A stretch of 64,000 nucleotides of DNA from Cyanobacterium sp. HL-69 (lineage in GTDB: Bacteria; Cyanobacteriota; Cyanobacteriia; Cyanobacteriales; Cyanobacteriaceae), in NCBI GenBank assembly GCA_002813895.1, contig CP024912.1, positions 992,001 to 1,056,000 of the forward strand, given 5' to 3'. The notes under the pieces are model-generated. The model was not told the origin of the DNA. It searched no databases and saw only the letters and a list, made by a program, of their open reading frames with translations. Made by a program: the position numbers and the translations under genes. Numbering within the stretch: position 1 is the stretch's first letter; the number at the start of each line of letters is the position of its first letter. Shown piece after piece: positions 5,578 to 57,606 of this stretch.

Positions 5578-6549
5578 CTATTTAGATGTTTTTGTTGTTT
5601 TTAAGGCAGGATCTTCAAACCTAATTTTTGACTGTTCTACATATTTTTCCTCAGCATCTATAGCTAACCATTTACGATCTAATCTCGCAGCGGCGTATCC
5701 AGTTGTATTGCTTCCTGCAAAAGGATCTAATACCCAGTCCCCTGGCTCTGTTAAAAATTCGATAAAAAAAGCAGGTAATCCCATTGGCATTCGTGCTGGA
5801 TGAGGAATAATATTTCTTTCTTTACAAGTTTTTGCAAAGAAATCTCTGGAATTACTATTTGAAAAAGAAAAAGCATTTGGTAAACGTACTTTGCGATTAG
5901 AATCCATTGCTTCTAATTCTAATAAATTATGGGCAATCGATCCGCCACAATCTTTTAGAAAGCTAGTTTCTCCTATTTTATGTTCAGAAGGTCTTTTCCC
6001 TGAATTATAGTTTCCTGTTTTCAGAAGATATTTCATACGATCACTATAAGGACGTAGAACTCTAGAATTATCAGCTTTCGGATTATCTGTTTTAGAGATC
6101 CACCATAAACGGGTATAGCTATCAACTGTTCTAATACGTTCAACCGTTACCCAATTGGCTGGAGAAGGTAAGCGAGAAGGATTGTAACAGACAAACTCCT
6201 GAATCAGACGCAAATCAGCATCAGGATGAGAAACAAAACCCATAAAAGATTGCAATGGTAATAAAGATTGAACTGGGCGTTGTGATTCCCAACTATTACC
6301 TAATTCAATAACGATAGAACCATTTTCTGTCAACATTTCCGAAAAAAGTGGGGCTAAAGCACTAAACCATTTTAAATATTCATCACCAAGCATATTCCCA
6401 TAGCTTTTTTTACTATTTAATGGAAAAGGAGGAGATGTAAAAATTAATTGTATTTTTCCTTTTAATCTGCGAAAAGACCTACTATTAAGGATGGTTTCCG
6501 CTTTTCCAACATAATAACGTCCAGTTTTTTTCTTTTGAACAATTGTCAC
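5578..6549 (-). CDS. Beta-class DNA methyltransferase (N4-cytosine or N6-adenine), CAST cargo
   Basis: This is a 323-residue site-specific DNA amino-methyltransferase. The catalytic motif IV TSPPF (38-42) precedes the SAM-binding motif DPFAGSNTTG (275-284); this order defines the beta class. The usual DPFxGSGTT has Asn in place of the second Gly here. S/TPP(Y/F) fits N4-cytosine or beta-class N6-adenine enzymes, and the target base cannot be told from sequence. It is first in the methyltransferase-herA-nurA operon, 45 bp after the CvkR-type gene. The context suggests it marks self DNA against the HerA-NurA machine (inference). Confidence 0.87.
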   Translation of the reverse strand: MTIVQKKKTGRYYVGKAETILNSRSFRRLKGKIQLIFTSPPFPLNSKKSYGNMLGDEYLKWFSALAPLFSEMLTENGSIVIELGNSWESQRPVQSLLPLQSFMGFVSHPDADLRLIQEFVCYNPSRLPSPANWVTVERIRTVDSYTRLWWISKTDNPKADNSRVLRPYSDRMKYLLKTGNYNSGKRPSEHKIGETSFLKDCGGSIAHNLLELEAMDSNRKVRLPNAFSFSNSNSRDFFAKTCKERNIIPHPARMPMGLPAFFIEFLTEPGDWVLDPFAGSNTTGYAAARLDRKWLAIDAEEKYVEQSKIRFEDPALKTTKTSK

Positions 6550-15585: not shown

Positions 15586-15861
15586 GGTAGTTTCTATATA
15601 CTTTGTTATTGGTTACTGCGGAGTAACTTTATATACTGATTGTTATAGTCTCTACTCATCATATCTTGATCAATAATTCTTCAGGTTATGATCTGATTAA
15701 GGGAAAATTGATTCCAAAGAAAAACCTCCGGGCGTCTTTCCATGTTTCGACTCCGAAGGCTTCTCATATTTAACTCCTCACCTAATCACTATTAAAATCC
15801 ATTTAGGAACAACGGGAGATAACCTTGTGACACTTTCTTAACTGTCACAGGGTCTGGAGGA

Positions 15862-44355: not shown

Positions 44356-44504
44356 ATAGTCAATTATTATGATGAAGAAAAAATCATCAAAACAAAATCA
44401 ATTACAGTTCAATTGTTCATGGTTAACTGTCAATTAATCATCAAAAAAAGCAGACAAGTGTAATTGCAAAAAAAGAATTAAGTATGCTATTATCTTAGTT
44501 ATTC

Positions 44505-44625
44505 GGTTTTAATAATTGTAAAAAAATTATTGAACGTAAGGGGGAAAGACTGGCGAAAATCCAGCACTGTCCCGCAACTGTAATTGGTAAAACTTACCAT
44601 AAGTCAGAATGCCCACCGATTATTA
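44505..44625 (+). promoter_or_regulatory. Cobalamin (B12) riboswitch upstream of metE
   Basis: The core GGGGAAAGACTGGCGAAAAT (44540-44559) then CCAGCACTGTCCCGCAACTG (44561-44580) is the conserved P3-P6 region. AAGTCAGAATGCCCACC (44601-44617) is the B12 box; flanking AT-rich segments can close P1. Cobalamin would lower expression of the B12-independent methionine synthase downstream, since cells with B12 can use MetH. The riboswitch-to-metE distance (about 590 bp) is unusually long. Confidence 0.88.
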
Positions 44626-45218
44626 ACCATGTTATTAAATTTATCTGCGAGGCACAGATGATGGTACTAAAACAGCACGTTTTCTTGTTCTATAATCATA
44701 ATCACTGGTTAAATTATCAGTAGTAAACTGAAAAATATTAAAAATAAGATCATTCTTTGTCCCAAAAATATGACCCTCAGTACTTTTTAGGATATAAGAA
44801 CCTTCATACTAATCATTGCTAATCTTAGTAAAATAGCCACAAACCTTGTCATTAATGCTTAGTTGTGCCAGATATTAAGTTAGTTGAGTAATTGTCCTTA
44901 GCCTTTTTGTCCCTTGGTAGAAAATTATAGGCGACTCAAGGCATATCGCTACCCCAAACCCCGATAGAGGATGACGGTAAATTAACTTTGCACAAAGTTT
45001 TTGACTATACCCCATTTTTAAGATAGCCAATGGATTGCACATTTGCCTATGACCCATAGGAATAAAAAGGTAGTGGAAAAATTACTGTACTTTTCTCCTG
45101 CTGATGAATATTTCCTATCTTGGCGTAACTTCGTGGTGCAAAAAAATCAAACACCGCCGTATATCTTCATACGGTTAAATTCACCTATCCATTATTTCAA
45201 TAATTAATCTTAACATCC
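44626..45218 (+). other. Long leader or gene remnant between riboswitch and metE
   Basis: 593 bp without a recognised gene. A 52-codon frame from an ATG at 45049 to a TAA at 45207 is open but not recognised. A small hairpin CCGTAT/ATACGG lies at about 45159-45174. Either metE has a very long 5' leader, or a B12-related gene that once stood here has decayed. Confidence 0.4.
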
Positions 45219-52354: not shown

Positions 52355-52480
52355 TCATAAAAGAATAGGCAAAAAGTTTTTTTTTCTCTCAATGGATTCT
52401 ATTGTTACTATGGCTACCATGTCTGTACCTGAAGATAGATAACCTAAATGTTTCGTGAAAGGGGCATGGAGGTTGAACAT
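52355..52480 (-). CDS. Possible 41-residue small protein
   Basis: An ATG at 52480 is preceded, 8 bp away, by GGGGGTGA, a good ribosome-binding site. The product (MFNLHAPFTKHLGYLSSGTD then MVAIVTIESIERKKNFLPILL) has a hydrophobic middle and a basic tail. No family is recognised. The frame extends upstream to 52564 across the likely promoter of the restriction gene, so the shorter start is preferred. It could be a remnant or a real short peptide. Confidence 0.35.
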   Translation of the reverse strand: MFNLHAPFTKHLGYLSSGTDMVAIVTIESIERKKNFLPILL

Positions 52481-52545
52481 ATGATATTCACCCCCTGCGG
52501 TGTATAATTTAGATTTGATATTAAGCAAGTATAAACGTTGTAGGA

Positions 52546-54591
52546 ATGAAAGCCAACGAAACAAAAATAATTCAATTTTTAGAGCAGTATAAAACTCAAT
52601 TTGTTATCCCCGTTTATCAACGAAATTATGATTGGTCTATTCCTCAATGTGAGCAACTTTTAAATGACATCCTAGACATAGGAAATAATGACAATATTAC
52701 TACCCATTTTATTGGGGGAATTGTTTTTATTCATGATGATTTACATACTGTTGCTACTGTCAGAGAGTTAACTATAATTGATGGGCAACAACGTTTAACG
52801 ACTATTACTTTGGTTTATTTAGCTATTTATCATTTAGCTAAAAAGTTAGGTATTGAAGAAACGGCAAATGAGATTCTTAATACTTACATTGTTAATCAAT
52901 ATGTTAAACAAGATGAGCAAAAAGTAAAGTTAAAATTAACTTCAGATAATGACCGAGCTTTAAAATATTTGATTCGAGGGGATCGCACGGAAGAATTTAA
53001 AAAATATTCGAGAGTAATTGATAACTTTAACTACTTTGAAAAAAATGTTAATGAAGATAATTATAAAGTAATTTTGAAAGGTTTAGAAAAACTAATATTT
53101 GTAGAAATATCTTTGGAAAGGGGAAAAGATGATCCTCAAAGAATCTTTGAAAGCCTCAATTCTACAGGATTAGATTTGTCTCAAGCTGATTTAATTAGAA
53201 ATTATATTCTAATGGATTTAAACCTTGATGAGCAACAAAGAGTTTATCAAGATTATTGGCTAATTATTGAAAACTTAGCTAGGGATGAGGTAAAAAATAT
53301 TAGTAAAGTATCTGATTTTATTCGAGATTATTTAACCTTAATCCATAAAAATATTCCCAATAAGTCAAAAGTTTATGAGGAATTTAAAAATAAATATCCA
53401 GATAAAGTTAATTTAGAAGAAGTTTTAAAAACCATCAAAAGGTTTGCTAAATACTATAATAAATTAATCAACCCTAAAAATGAAAAAGATACAGACATCA
53501 GAAAAGACTTAGAGTATATAAATCGCCTTGAAATAAATGTAGCTTATCCTTTTCTAATGCAGGTTTATTTTGATTTTGAAGAAGCAATAATAGACAAACA
53601 TACTTTTATTCAGATTCTTCTTGTGGTTCAATCTTTTGTGTGGAGAAGATTTATCATCGGCTTAAGTACCAATAGCTTAAATAAAATTTTTATGAATCTG
53701 TATGAAAAAATAGATACAAATAATTATTTATTTTCTCTACAAAAAGCCCTATTACAAAAAAAAGGAAGTCAAAGATTTCCCAACAACAAAGAGGTTTTAG
53801 ACGCTCTCAAATTTAAAGATGTTTATAATATAAAATCTAAAAATAGGACTTATTTATTAGAAAAATTAGAATATTACCAAAACTTTGAACCCGTAATATT
53901 AGATAATAAAATTACTATAGAACATATTTTTCCTCAAAATCCAGATCCACAATGGTTAAAAGATTTAGGTAAAGAGGAATTTGATGATATTAAAAATAAT
54001 TATTTACATACATTAGCAAATTTAACCTTATCTGGGGTAAATGCTCAGTTAAAAAATAAGTCTTTTCTTGAAAAAAGAGATTTAAAAGACTATGGATATA
54101 AATACAGCAATTTAAACCTTAATAAGTATTTAGAGGATCTTGATAAATGGGATAAAAGTGAGATTAAGAAACGTTTTAATGATTTGGCTAAAAACTTTTT
54201 AAAAATCTGGTGTTATCCTGATATTGATATTAACGATAAAGAAACAGAGGAAGTTAATATTTTTGATGCCGATGAGCCAAAGGGTAAAAAACTTGAGTAT
54301 GCAATTTTTTGTGATGAGAAATTACAAATCAAAGAAGTAGCTAAACTATATGCAGAAGTATTTAAAAAATTATTTGAGTAAAATTCAGAAATTTTTTTTA
54401 ATTCCGATTTAGGGCCAAAAATTATTTTAAAAGATGAAAAAAACAAAAATAGTTTAAGACAAAGTGTATCTATTAGTAATAACTTTTATATAGAGGGAAA
54501 TTTAGATAGTAATAGTAAATTTGAAAAAATTAAATATGCCTTAAAACTGTTTGATCTCGAAGAAGAATTAATTATTAAATACACCAAATAA
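52546..54591 (+). pseudogene. GmrSD-type (DUF262/DUF1524) restriction protein, C-terminal domain cut by in-frame TAA
   Basis: The main product (52546-54381, 611 residues) has the DUF262/ParB-like NTPase part with IDGQQRLTTITL (about residues 79-90). It also has the DUF1524 His-Me nuclease motif IEHIFPQN (about 463-470). This family cleaves modified phage DNA. The TAA at 54379-54381 is followed in the same frame by 69 more sense codons ending at TAA 54589. They read as a conserved-looking tail (DLGPKIILKDEKN, NNFYIEGNLDSNSKFEKIKY). A single-base nonsense change is the simplest reading. The NTPase and nuclease remain intact, so the shortened protein may still act. Confidence 0.85.
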
Positions 54592-54598
54592 TGTGTAG

Positions 54599-54622
54599 GG
54601 TGGGCAATGCCCACCTTTTTTT
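54599..54622 (+). terminator. Terminator after the GmrSD gene (same palindrome as psbU)
   Basis: GGTGGGCAATGCCCACC with seven T, 8 bp after the distal stop at 54591. That the terminator follows the distal stop supports the view that the original gene ended there. Confidence 0.88.
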
Positions 54623-55609: not shown

Positions 55610-56671
55610 CTAAGTACAGGACAAAAAATTTAAACATCTTATAAATTCATTCTGTTTTAGATCGATGTCAAGAAAGATCATTCTTAGATGGTCGAGTCCA
55701 TAACGAAAAATACTTTTTACTCGCCGACCATGTTTTTTGATTTTTAATGGTATCTGTTCATGTAACCATTCTCCTATTAAAATTGCCCAACACAGAGCTA
55801 AACTCATTAATGTGAACAATTTACTTAGTCTTTCTGGCTGATTAAAATGAGTAGATTCTAAATGAAATCCTCTGGTTTTAAACATCCCGAATAGTGTTTC
55901 AATGCCCCATCGATGAGCGTAATCAGCAATTGCACTCTTCCCAGAGTCATTGCTAATTACAATTAGTAACTCCCCATCTTCTAAACGTAAAGCAGACACA
56001 TAAACTTGTCTTCCCCAAACCCAACGTTTACCTGAAAGAGTTTGAGATTCCCCCATTCGAAGATGAGCAAAAAGAATTGATGAGGCCAGACTTTTTTGCC
56101 CATCACCAATCTTATGATCTGCTTTAATCCTCAAACGAAAAGGAATTTGAGGTTCAATCATTAGATAAGTCAACCATTCCTTACCGATAAACTCTCTATC
56201 ACCACAAATATAGGATACTTGAGCTGTGGGAAAAATCTCCCAGAATTGATCCAATAAATCCATTCTTTCACAACTGTTAGAATTACCTTTCTTTTCTAAC
56301 ATTGTCCAAGTGATGGGAAAAGCAACACCCTTATGAACAATACCCAAAACAAAAATATTAAAACAAGTAGAGCCAAAACACCATTGTGTTCGGTCAATAC
56401 TTAAAACCCATGGTTGAGGTATATTCATCAAGGAAACTATGGTTTTAGCAATCAGACTCAAATCAAGGTTAAAATTAGCAAAAAATCGTTGAAGTCTCTT
56501 ATAGCTCGATTCTGGTTTAGCACAGGTACGAAAAGCTAAGGAAAGACTTGTTAAATCAACGGTTCGCACACGAATCAATGCCATCAAAAATAATGCTAGA
56601 AAATTTAGTCTTGCACCGTGCCATGGTAAATGTTTTTTCAAACTATCACGAAGTAAGTTAACCTGATTCAT
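55610..56671 (-). CDS. IS4-family transposase
   Basis: 353 residues with the DDE triad: Asp in LSIDRTQWCFG (about residue 97), Asp in YICGDREFIGKEW, and Glu in the YREK signature YAHRWGIETLFGMFK. The frame is complete; the stop codon lies in the terminal repeat. Probably active or recently active. Confidence 0.9.
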   Translation of the reverse strand: MNQVNLLRDSLKKHLPWHGARLNFLALFLMALIRVRTVDLTSLSLAFRTCAKPESSYKRLQRFFANFNLDLSLIAKTIVSLMNIPQPWVLSIDRTQWCFGSTCFNIFVLGIVHKGVAFPITWTMLEKKGNSNSCERMDLLDQFWEIFPTAQVSYICGDREFIGKEWLTYLMIEPQIPFRLRIKADHKIGDGQKSLASSILFAHLRMGESQTLSGKRWVWGRQVYVSALRLEDGELLIVISNDSGKSAIADYAHRWGIETLFGMFKTRGFHLESTHFNQPERLSKLFTLMSLALCWAILIGEWLHEQIPLKIKKHGRRVKSIFRYGLDHLRMIFLDIDLKQNEFIRCLNFLSCT

Positions 56672-56764: not shown

Positions 56765-57606
56765 AATATTTACACTTAGGATTAATTTCTGATATTAAAA
56801 GAAAATCTCTTCCTGAAATTTCTCGCATCGTTAATGTTTCTTCTCAAAGTTTACATCATTTTCTCACTTGTGCTGATTGGAATTTATGGGAATTAGAAAA
56901 AACTCGTTTGCACTCAATCTTAAATGTTTTTATTAATATTCCTATTACAATTATTATTGATGAAACAGGAGACCGTAAAAAGCGGTGCGACCCCGCGTCG
57001 GCGAAAGACGCAAGGGAACGCGCACCAAGATAAGGAAATACTACGGATTATATATCTCGACAATATCATGGTCAAAGAAAAGAAATAACTTATTGGGAAC
57101 TGACGACAGACCCAGAAACGATGCCAAAAAATAGTACAAGTTTTGTGATGACAAATATTAAAGGAAGTAGAAATGAACAAAAAAAAACTATAGGAAATTT
57201 ATATGGTGAGCGTACATGGGTGGAGTATGGATTTCGCCAGTGTAAACAAGAACTAGGTTGGACAGATTATCGTTTAACGAAAGGAAAAGACATTTTAAAA
57301 TGGTGGGAAATAATTAATAGTGTTTATTGGATGATTAGCGTAAAAACTAAGCCAGTTAAACAATTAATAAATCAGAAAAACAGAGAGGGGAACAAGGAAG
57401 AAAAAAGAATAAATAATCAAGACTGGCGTAATTTTAATAGTTGGAAAAATACATTAGTAAATTACAGAATCATGGTTCAACCAATATTAATATTTGGAGC
57501 AGTATTGCCATGGTTAAGAATGATGAAAAATGATGTCATTTGGATAGGTTTTAATAATTTGCTCGAGTATAGTAATAATTGTATGAATTATTTTTTGAGC
57601 GGATAA
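56765..57606 (+). pseudogene. IS701-family transposase pseudogene
   Basis: Recognisable parts are LGLISDIKRKSLPEISRIV, TIIIDETGDRKK, EITYWELTTDPETMPKNSTS, and the C-terminal YGERTWVEYGFRQCKQELGW (from the ATG at 57121 to the stop at 57606). The 5' end is missing, and a 43-bp GC-rich palindrome interrupts it after DETGDRKK. More than 100 codons between RQYHGQ and RKEITYW are deleted. Non-functional. Confidence 0.85.
56984..57026. repeat. 43-bp GC-rich palindromic element inserted in the transposase pseudogene
   Basis: Outer arms GGTGCG/CGCACC and inner arms GCGTC/GACGC with loop GGCGAAA form a two-tier hairpin. It is strikingly GC-rich inside AT-rich DNA and exactly interrupts the codons after DETGDRKK. 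It looks like a small REP-type mobile palindrome. No second copy was seen in this window. Confidence 0.6.

Follow-up and report, generated by a model that had tools for sequence, protein, structure and literature searches.

The GmrSD-type restriction gene of Cyanobacterium sp. HL-69, a strain from a hypersaline lake mat (PMC5805888), has probably been cut short by a recent nonsense mutation. The mutation leaves the catalytic body of this solitary enzyme whole and removes most of a C-terminal SeqA-like domain that would serve in recognition, so that target recognition would be lost or changed, or the protein unstable. The stop itself is an ordinary fate for a defence gene. The point of interest is the severed tail, a domain common to a set of GmrSD-type enzymes that bears no family name in the libraries consulted and resembles the part of SeqA that binds methylated DNA. 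The gene starts at C1:1044546 of the chromosome and lies in a window of 64,000 nucleotides, meaning the whole stretch of DNA that was analysed; its features are collected in Table 1.

Table 1. Features of the GmrSD-type gene of HL-69 and its flanks, in window positions
Feature	Positions	Strand	Basis
Upstream DNA common to HL-69 and G004; flank differs past about 52426 (rearrangement breakpoint)	52426..52545	+	
GmrSD-type gene, 611 aa	52546..54381	+	ORF list; ends at TAA 54379-54381
GmrSD_N / DUF262 domain, residues 9-221	52570..53208	+	PF03235, E 2.3e-35
DGQQR NTPase motif, residues 79-83, intact	52780..52794	+	Role as given in parts of PMC11411939 and PMC8565348
GmrSD_C / DUF1524 HNH nuclease domain, residues 412-549	53779..54192	+	PF07510, E 1.2e-23
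EHIFP nuclease motif (D/E/H-H-x-x-P), residues 459-463, intact	53920..53934	+	Motif as given in a part of PMC4437046
Retained part of C-terminal domain (predicted two strands and first helix, L027 model), residues 583-611	54292..54378	+	
Premature TAA, residue 612; Gln, Arg and Lys codons in G004, G003 and G002	54379..54381	+	Alignment
Rest of putative C-terminal SeqA-like domain past the stop, 69 codons	54382..54588	+	Same frame, model, profiles
NLDSNSK stretch, residues 652-658, aligned with SeqA NTNTGRK loop (N150-K156)	54499..54519	+	
Second TAA, where relatives' genes end (TAA in G004, TGA in G003)	54589..54591	+	
Terminator-like hairpin and T-run, copy of a dispersed genomic palindrome	54597..54617	+	

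The membership of the protein in the GmrSD family is clear from its domains and motifs. Both Pfam models match the same chain far above their cut-offs (PF03235 with 122.9 bits against 33.2, PF07510 with 84 bits against 23), and the DGQQR and (D/E/H)HxxP motifs are both present. In GmrSD enzymes, as set out in sections of PMC8565348, PMC11411939 and PMC4437046, nucleotide binding and hydrolysis as well as the sensing of modification fall to DUF262, and cleavage to DUF1524. The best matches in the PADLOC defence library are Orf5 (E 2e-144) and HEC-06 (E 9.4e-62); the two best rows of the former and the three rows of the latter end at residue 555-557, and these models thus describe the body without the tail. 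The GC content of the gene is 25.8%, that of the chromosome 37.8% (PMC5805888).

The first-pass annotation had described the premature TAA, 69 codons that stay open behind it in the same frame, and the second TAA, all of which were confirmed. A frame of this length remained open by chance in 14 of 20,000 simulations (first-order Markov model with the tail's own composition), and the other frames of the 69-codon stretch hold 7 and 14 stops on the plus strand and 7, 1 and 7 on the minus strand. Homology, as read from the alignments, is the stronger argument for a real tail, which aligns with the fused C-terminus of all 15 close relatives compared, although the last residues of one of them (L068) diverge. 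A separate downstream gene was rejected as a reading, as the tail offers no in-frame ATG, GTG or TTG.

Aligning homologues, which had been proposed as a check of whether the tail is normally fused, gave a uniform answer: it is fused in 15 of 15 close relatives, which share at least 46% identity and range from the genus to Proteobacteria and Bacteroidota (G004, G003, G002, L025-L030 and L068-L073; left out of the count were L074, whose contig ends early, and the viral matches L075-L093 with at most 39% identity). Three of the four other genomes of the genus carry the gene, with 98% (G004), 90% (G003) and 68% (G002) identity and single open frames of 681, 680 and 683 aa, respectively; the fourth (G001, 63% complete) gave a weak match only. 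Tails are likewise fused in L025-L030 (46-62% identity to the G004 protein) and in L068-L073 (48-54% identity), both groups with uninterrupted frames. By these alignments HL-69 alone carries the stop among the genes compared, which rules out conserved recoding, and the corresponding codon in the nearest relative differs from the stop by a single base. Homologues ending naturally at this position were looked for among the close relatives and the 69 rows of the class search described below, and none was found. With all tails fused, no relative ending here and the catalytic motifs intact, the original proposal of a recent nonsense mutation that spares DUF262 and DUF1524 is supported.

Comparison with the closest homologue, from G004, informs us on the age of the event. 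Of the changes that separate the two tails, 11 are synonymous and 4 non-synonymous (dS 0.375, dN 0.024), and differences are denser there (15 of 207 bases) than in the body (34 of 1,830 bases). Decay of the tail in HL-69 was ruled out as the cause of this excess, since among the 13 differing codons more are derived in G004 (6) than in HL-69 (3), the remaining 4 being undecided. The three synonymous and at most two non-synonymous changes on the HL-69 side give P 0.04 under neutrality, a weak value obtained with the undecided codons 668 and 680 and the stop omitted. The HL-69 tail is free of indels and of any further stop; since neither another stop nor a frameshift followed, the mutation looks recent, with counts too small for a date.

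The place of the stop within the fold was judged on a structure predicted for the intact relative L027. With 14 relatives supplied, the model reached a mean pLDDT of 80 and a pTM of 0.66 (an earlier prediction without relatives had a pLDDT of 34.5). It contains a predicted compact alpha/beta domain after DUF1524, at model residues 587-683, built from two strands, a helix (602-616), two short helices, two strands, a second long helix (659-672) and a last strand. As HL-69 residue 611 corresponds to model residue 615 and the stop to residue 616, the chain is, on this model, interrupted where the first long helix ends, which would remove about two thirds of the domain. The reading that a C-terminal domain was trimmed off therefore stands in that the domain is cut, and fails in that it is not lost as a unit: the stop falls after its first helix. 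No family name for the domain was found in Pfam, NCBIfam or PHROG.

Two independent but moderate lines, fold and profile, relate the C-terminal domain to the DNA-binding domain of SeqA. For the fold, VIA-align was used to fit 322 solved chains, taken from Foldseek's ranking, to the whole L027 model, a comparison in which other folds for the tail were barely tested. The sole entries within the tail among the 50 matches listed were two SeqA chains in complex with DNA (3fmt_A with Z 7.7, 1iu3_C with Z 7.6). Each aligned over 90 residues at 2.7 A (model residues 590-682), and both fall below the tool's Z 8 mark. The Foldseek searches of the model listed no SeqA chain; the match emerged only on re-alignment with VIA-align. 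For the profiles, 16 tails compared with 6 SeqA proteins gave a probability of 85.8 and a score of 38.9 over 77 columns, above the controls: 400 column shuffles reached at most 20.6, and twelve other pieces of the same proteins at most 15.4, apart from the terminal piece, which shares sequence with the tail (22.2). When the set was split, the near tails alone matched SeqA with a probability of 10.1 (score 23.8), ten distant tails alone with 78.5 (score 36.1; 100 shuffles at most 19.5) and near and distant tails together with 84.3 (score 37.8; 100 shuffles at most 17.2). The two sets match one another at 97.9, and by the split scores the link of the near-clade tails to SeqA runs chiefly through their remoter relatives. 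The SeqA Pfam model had no match at E<=10 in any of the 16 tails.

The distant set consists of ten GmrSD-type proteins picked because their matches extended into the tail (L045, L050, L051, L053, L054, L057, L059, L060, L075 and L076). They carry a related domain in their C-terminal ~73-105 aa, most show a GxFIExNLS-like motif, and they match SeqA better than the clade of HL-69 does. Many other members of the GmrSD family may have this unnamed domain. Three plasmid records matched the L027 tail at E<=0.01. A search for SeqA in phage records gave no match, and the 28.8-kb E. coli plasmid CP043024.1 (L102) has a SeqA-like stretch at 5997-6347 with 44.6% identity to SeqA and 5 stop codons when translated. 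In the open-access literature we found no paper linking SeqA to GmrSD, DUF262 or Type IV restriction; in the part of PMC12707154 that bears on SeqA, the protein serves only as a fluorescent reporter.

According to the relevant portion of PMC6225831, SeqA contacts GATC through R116, T117, R118, N150 and N152. By alignment these positions correspond to HL-69 residues 623-625, 652 and 654, all past the stop at 612. Their retention is mixed. Asn occupies the position of N150 in 15 of 16 tails, and Lys or Arg that of R118 in 13; a further SeqA residue, K156, has a Lys as its counterpart in 15 of 16. At R116 the SeqA residue is lost (Gly in 9 of 16 tails), T117 is replaced by Glu in 11 of 16, and at N152 the tails have Asp (13 of 16) or Ser (3 of 16). 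This pattern fits a related DNA-binding domain with another target and not a copy of the GATC reader.

Outside the close clade, GmrSD-type proteins without the tail occur. The class search covered 388 genomes and returned 69 rows from the 64 with a match. Besides HL-69, alignment of its best rows (38-43% identity) stops at about residue 560-569, and the frame in G365 (43% identity), at 565 codons, has no room for this C-terminal domain. A further view comes from 18 of the 69 rows, which align to about residue 555-560 and whose uninterrupted frames of only 558-600 codons end before the domain completes, most of them before its start at about residue 583. A narrow tail profile built from the close relatives (A5) matched 1 of the 388 genomes, namely HL-69 itself. 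HL-69 also encodes a second, GmrSD-like gene, an intact tailless paralogue of 568 aa. Judged by the sequences compared, one GmrSD branch has the tail as an accessory module, and outside the close clade it is not universal. The tailless homologues, together with the paralogue, mean that the truncated enzyme may still work. In-frame stops occur in 5 of the 69 rows, the HL-69 gene included, so broken GmrSD genes are not rare. The family search also met a copy with 13 in-frame stops in G005 and one with a single stop in G010; in G005 two homologues adjoin each other (G005:C79:32513-35970), one an open frame and the other the copy with 13 stops.

The gene stands alone between an EgtD-like gene upstream and an SPFH/prohibitin-like gene downstream, names that come from reading the translations. 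The downstream neighbour is common to HL-69, G004 and G003, while the upstream one differs in each. Relative to G004 the breakpoint lies ~120 bp upstream of the gene, and the upstream neighbour of G004 is found ~73 kb away in HL-69 (C1:1120047-1120640). Just past the prohibitin-like gene, reading of the translations suggests two transposase-like ORFs (55610-56671 and 57121-57606, the second apparently a fragment). The terminator described earlier, 8 bp behind the second stop, was found again: the gap is 8 when counted to the GTGGGC arm at 54600, and a hairpin scan places the stem 5 bases past that stop. The hairpin palindrome, TAGGGTGGGCAATGCCCACC, has 76 matches in the HL-69 genome at up to 2 mismatches (42 forward, 34 reverse, 9 exact), a count in which palindromic copies can appear on both strands; the reversed control of TAGGGTGGGCAATGCCCACC had 0 matches in the same genome. 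Elsewhere in the window, a cobalamin riboswitch (44487-44634) and a Cyano-1 sRNA (15713-15787) score above the Rfam gathering thresholds.

How the truncated allele is to be understood depends on weighing several explanations. That the truncation is harmless or even adaptive, leaving a 611-aa enzyme that remains active against phage, with a specificity that may be broader or weaker and with the tail as an accessory, is unlikely, although it draws on the short frames in the class search and on the intact paralogue. Part of PMC4619093 describes GmrSD C-termini as variable, and a passage of PMC4437046 reports that over-expressed GmrSD was toxic in recA-deficient E. coli and that a stop was once selected during cloning, so weakening of the enzyme can be favoured. 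Yet the close relatives have kept the tail across phyla, and on the L027 model the leftover half-domain would be likelier to destabilise the protein than a clean removal. An error in the published assembly, with an intact gene in the living strain, is quite improbable. A substitution of one base would be enough for it, and the Illumina metagenome of the enrichment culture used for correction could have imported a strain variant (PMC5805888). That same correction, however, was added to 60,773 PacBio RS II reads with a mean of 5,905 nt (PMC5805888), which we compute as about 109-fold for 3.30 Mb, and the frame is undisturbed on either side of the stop. Furthermore, the residual errors of PacBio RS II are mostly indels, not substitutions. 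Readthrough of the stop, programmed or tuned, would yield some full-length enzyme and limit toxicity; a tuned form that lowers toxicity had been raised in the first-pass annotation. Such readthrough found no support, and we regard it as extremely improbable: the intact frame with its few amino-acid changes would suit it, but recency alone explains that frame and none of the 15 close relatives has the stop. In addition, bacterial TAA stops are not known to be leaky.

The nature of the tail is a separate matter. It is possible, though we doubt it, that the tail is unrelated to SeqA and represents an unnamed domain for dimerisation or stability whose match reflects a common alpha/beta arrangement. 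The tool's own note allows that a Z below 8 can mean just that, and the weak result for the near tails and the missing Pfam match point the same way. Against this, both methods single out one and the same domain, nearly all of it is covered by the structural match, and the scores of shuffles and of other pieces of these proteins are far lower. With a recent nonsense mutation in a SeqA-like domain as the preferred reading, we propose the following mechanism. In the intact relatives the C-terminal domain would help to recognise the DNA target, which is probably a base modification or the methylation state of the DNA, and this recognition would be coupled to the HNH nuclease. The HL-69 protein would consist of the catalytic body and a half-domain that should not fold, and would have no recognition loop. 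The likely outcome would be lost or altered target recognition, or an unstable protein; residual activity is possible because tailless homologues exist.

A bolder proposal goes beyond HL-69 and is offered tentatively, as one that may well prove wrong. A branch of GmrSD-type enzymes, present in several cyanobacterial lineages and beyond, might use a SeqA-like reader of adenine methylation, or of another base modification, to gate the HNH nuclease, with HL-69 holding a natural reader-less allele made by one stop. If this is true, GmrSD-type enzymes could read modified DNA with a part of the chain other than DUF262, the domain usually suspected of sensing the target, and HL-69 and its relatives would form a natural pair with and without that reader. 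The HL-69 genome encodes one Dam-family adenine methylase, as well as dndC (C1:289030-290364) and dndD (C1:1688699-1690672), which makes a DNA modification that such enzymes could sense plausible in this strain. Within the genus, dndC occurs in 5 of 5 genomes, in two pieces in G003.

Among known systems, the HL-69 protein shares its architecture with the GmrSD family of Type IV modification-dependent restriction enzymes. As described in parts of PMC4619093, PMC4437046, PMC8565348 and PMC11411939, Eco94GmrSD, BrxU and TgvB likewise combine an N-terminal DUF262 domain with DGQQR, a helical linker and a C-terminal DUF1524 HNH domain in a single chain. The BrxU structure aligns to the L027 model with Z 10.3. 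In contrast to that family, the clade of HL-69 has an extra predicted SeqA-like domain of ~95 aa after DUF1524, which in HL-69 is cut by the stop. The closest solved structure by sequence is DndI (9jfl), with E 1.3e-12 for the G004 protein and 1.5e-16 for a profile. In fold, DndI reaches Z 17.6 against the L027 model (rmsd 8.0, 484 aligned residues), and SspE is tied with it at Z 16.7, so the likeness is not specific to DndI. Both are phosphorothioate-sensing DUF262-DUF1524 enzymes with about 16-20% identity to the HL-69 type. The solved DndI chain (596 residues; cited ORF 1,971 bp) ends with the nuclease domain, and the two other GmrSD-like proteins of HL-69 match DndI better than this one does. 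A location with the dndBCDE genes, as would be expected of a DndI, is not seen as far as dndC and dndD are concerned, which in HL-69 lie far from each other and from the GmrSD-type gene. The comparison with the C-terminal domain of SeqA, the reader of hemimethylated GATC, concerns the tail itself: likenesses are a predicted fold that matches with Z below 8, a collinear profile match and the N150, K156 and R118-type positions, retained in the majority of tails. Different are the lost R116 and T117, the change of N152 to Asp or Ser, an identity of about 13% in the profile alignment, and the partner of the domain, which is a nuclease in the GmrSD-type enzymes and an N-terminal oligomerisation domain in SeqA.
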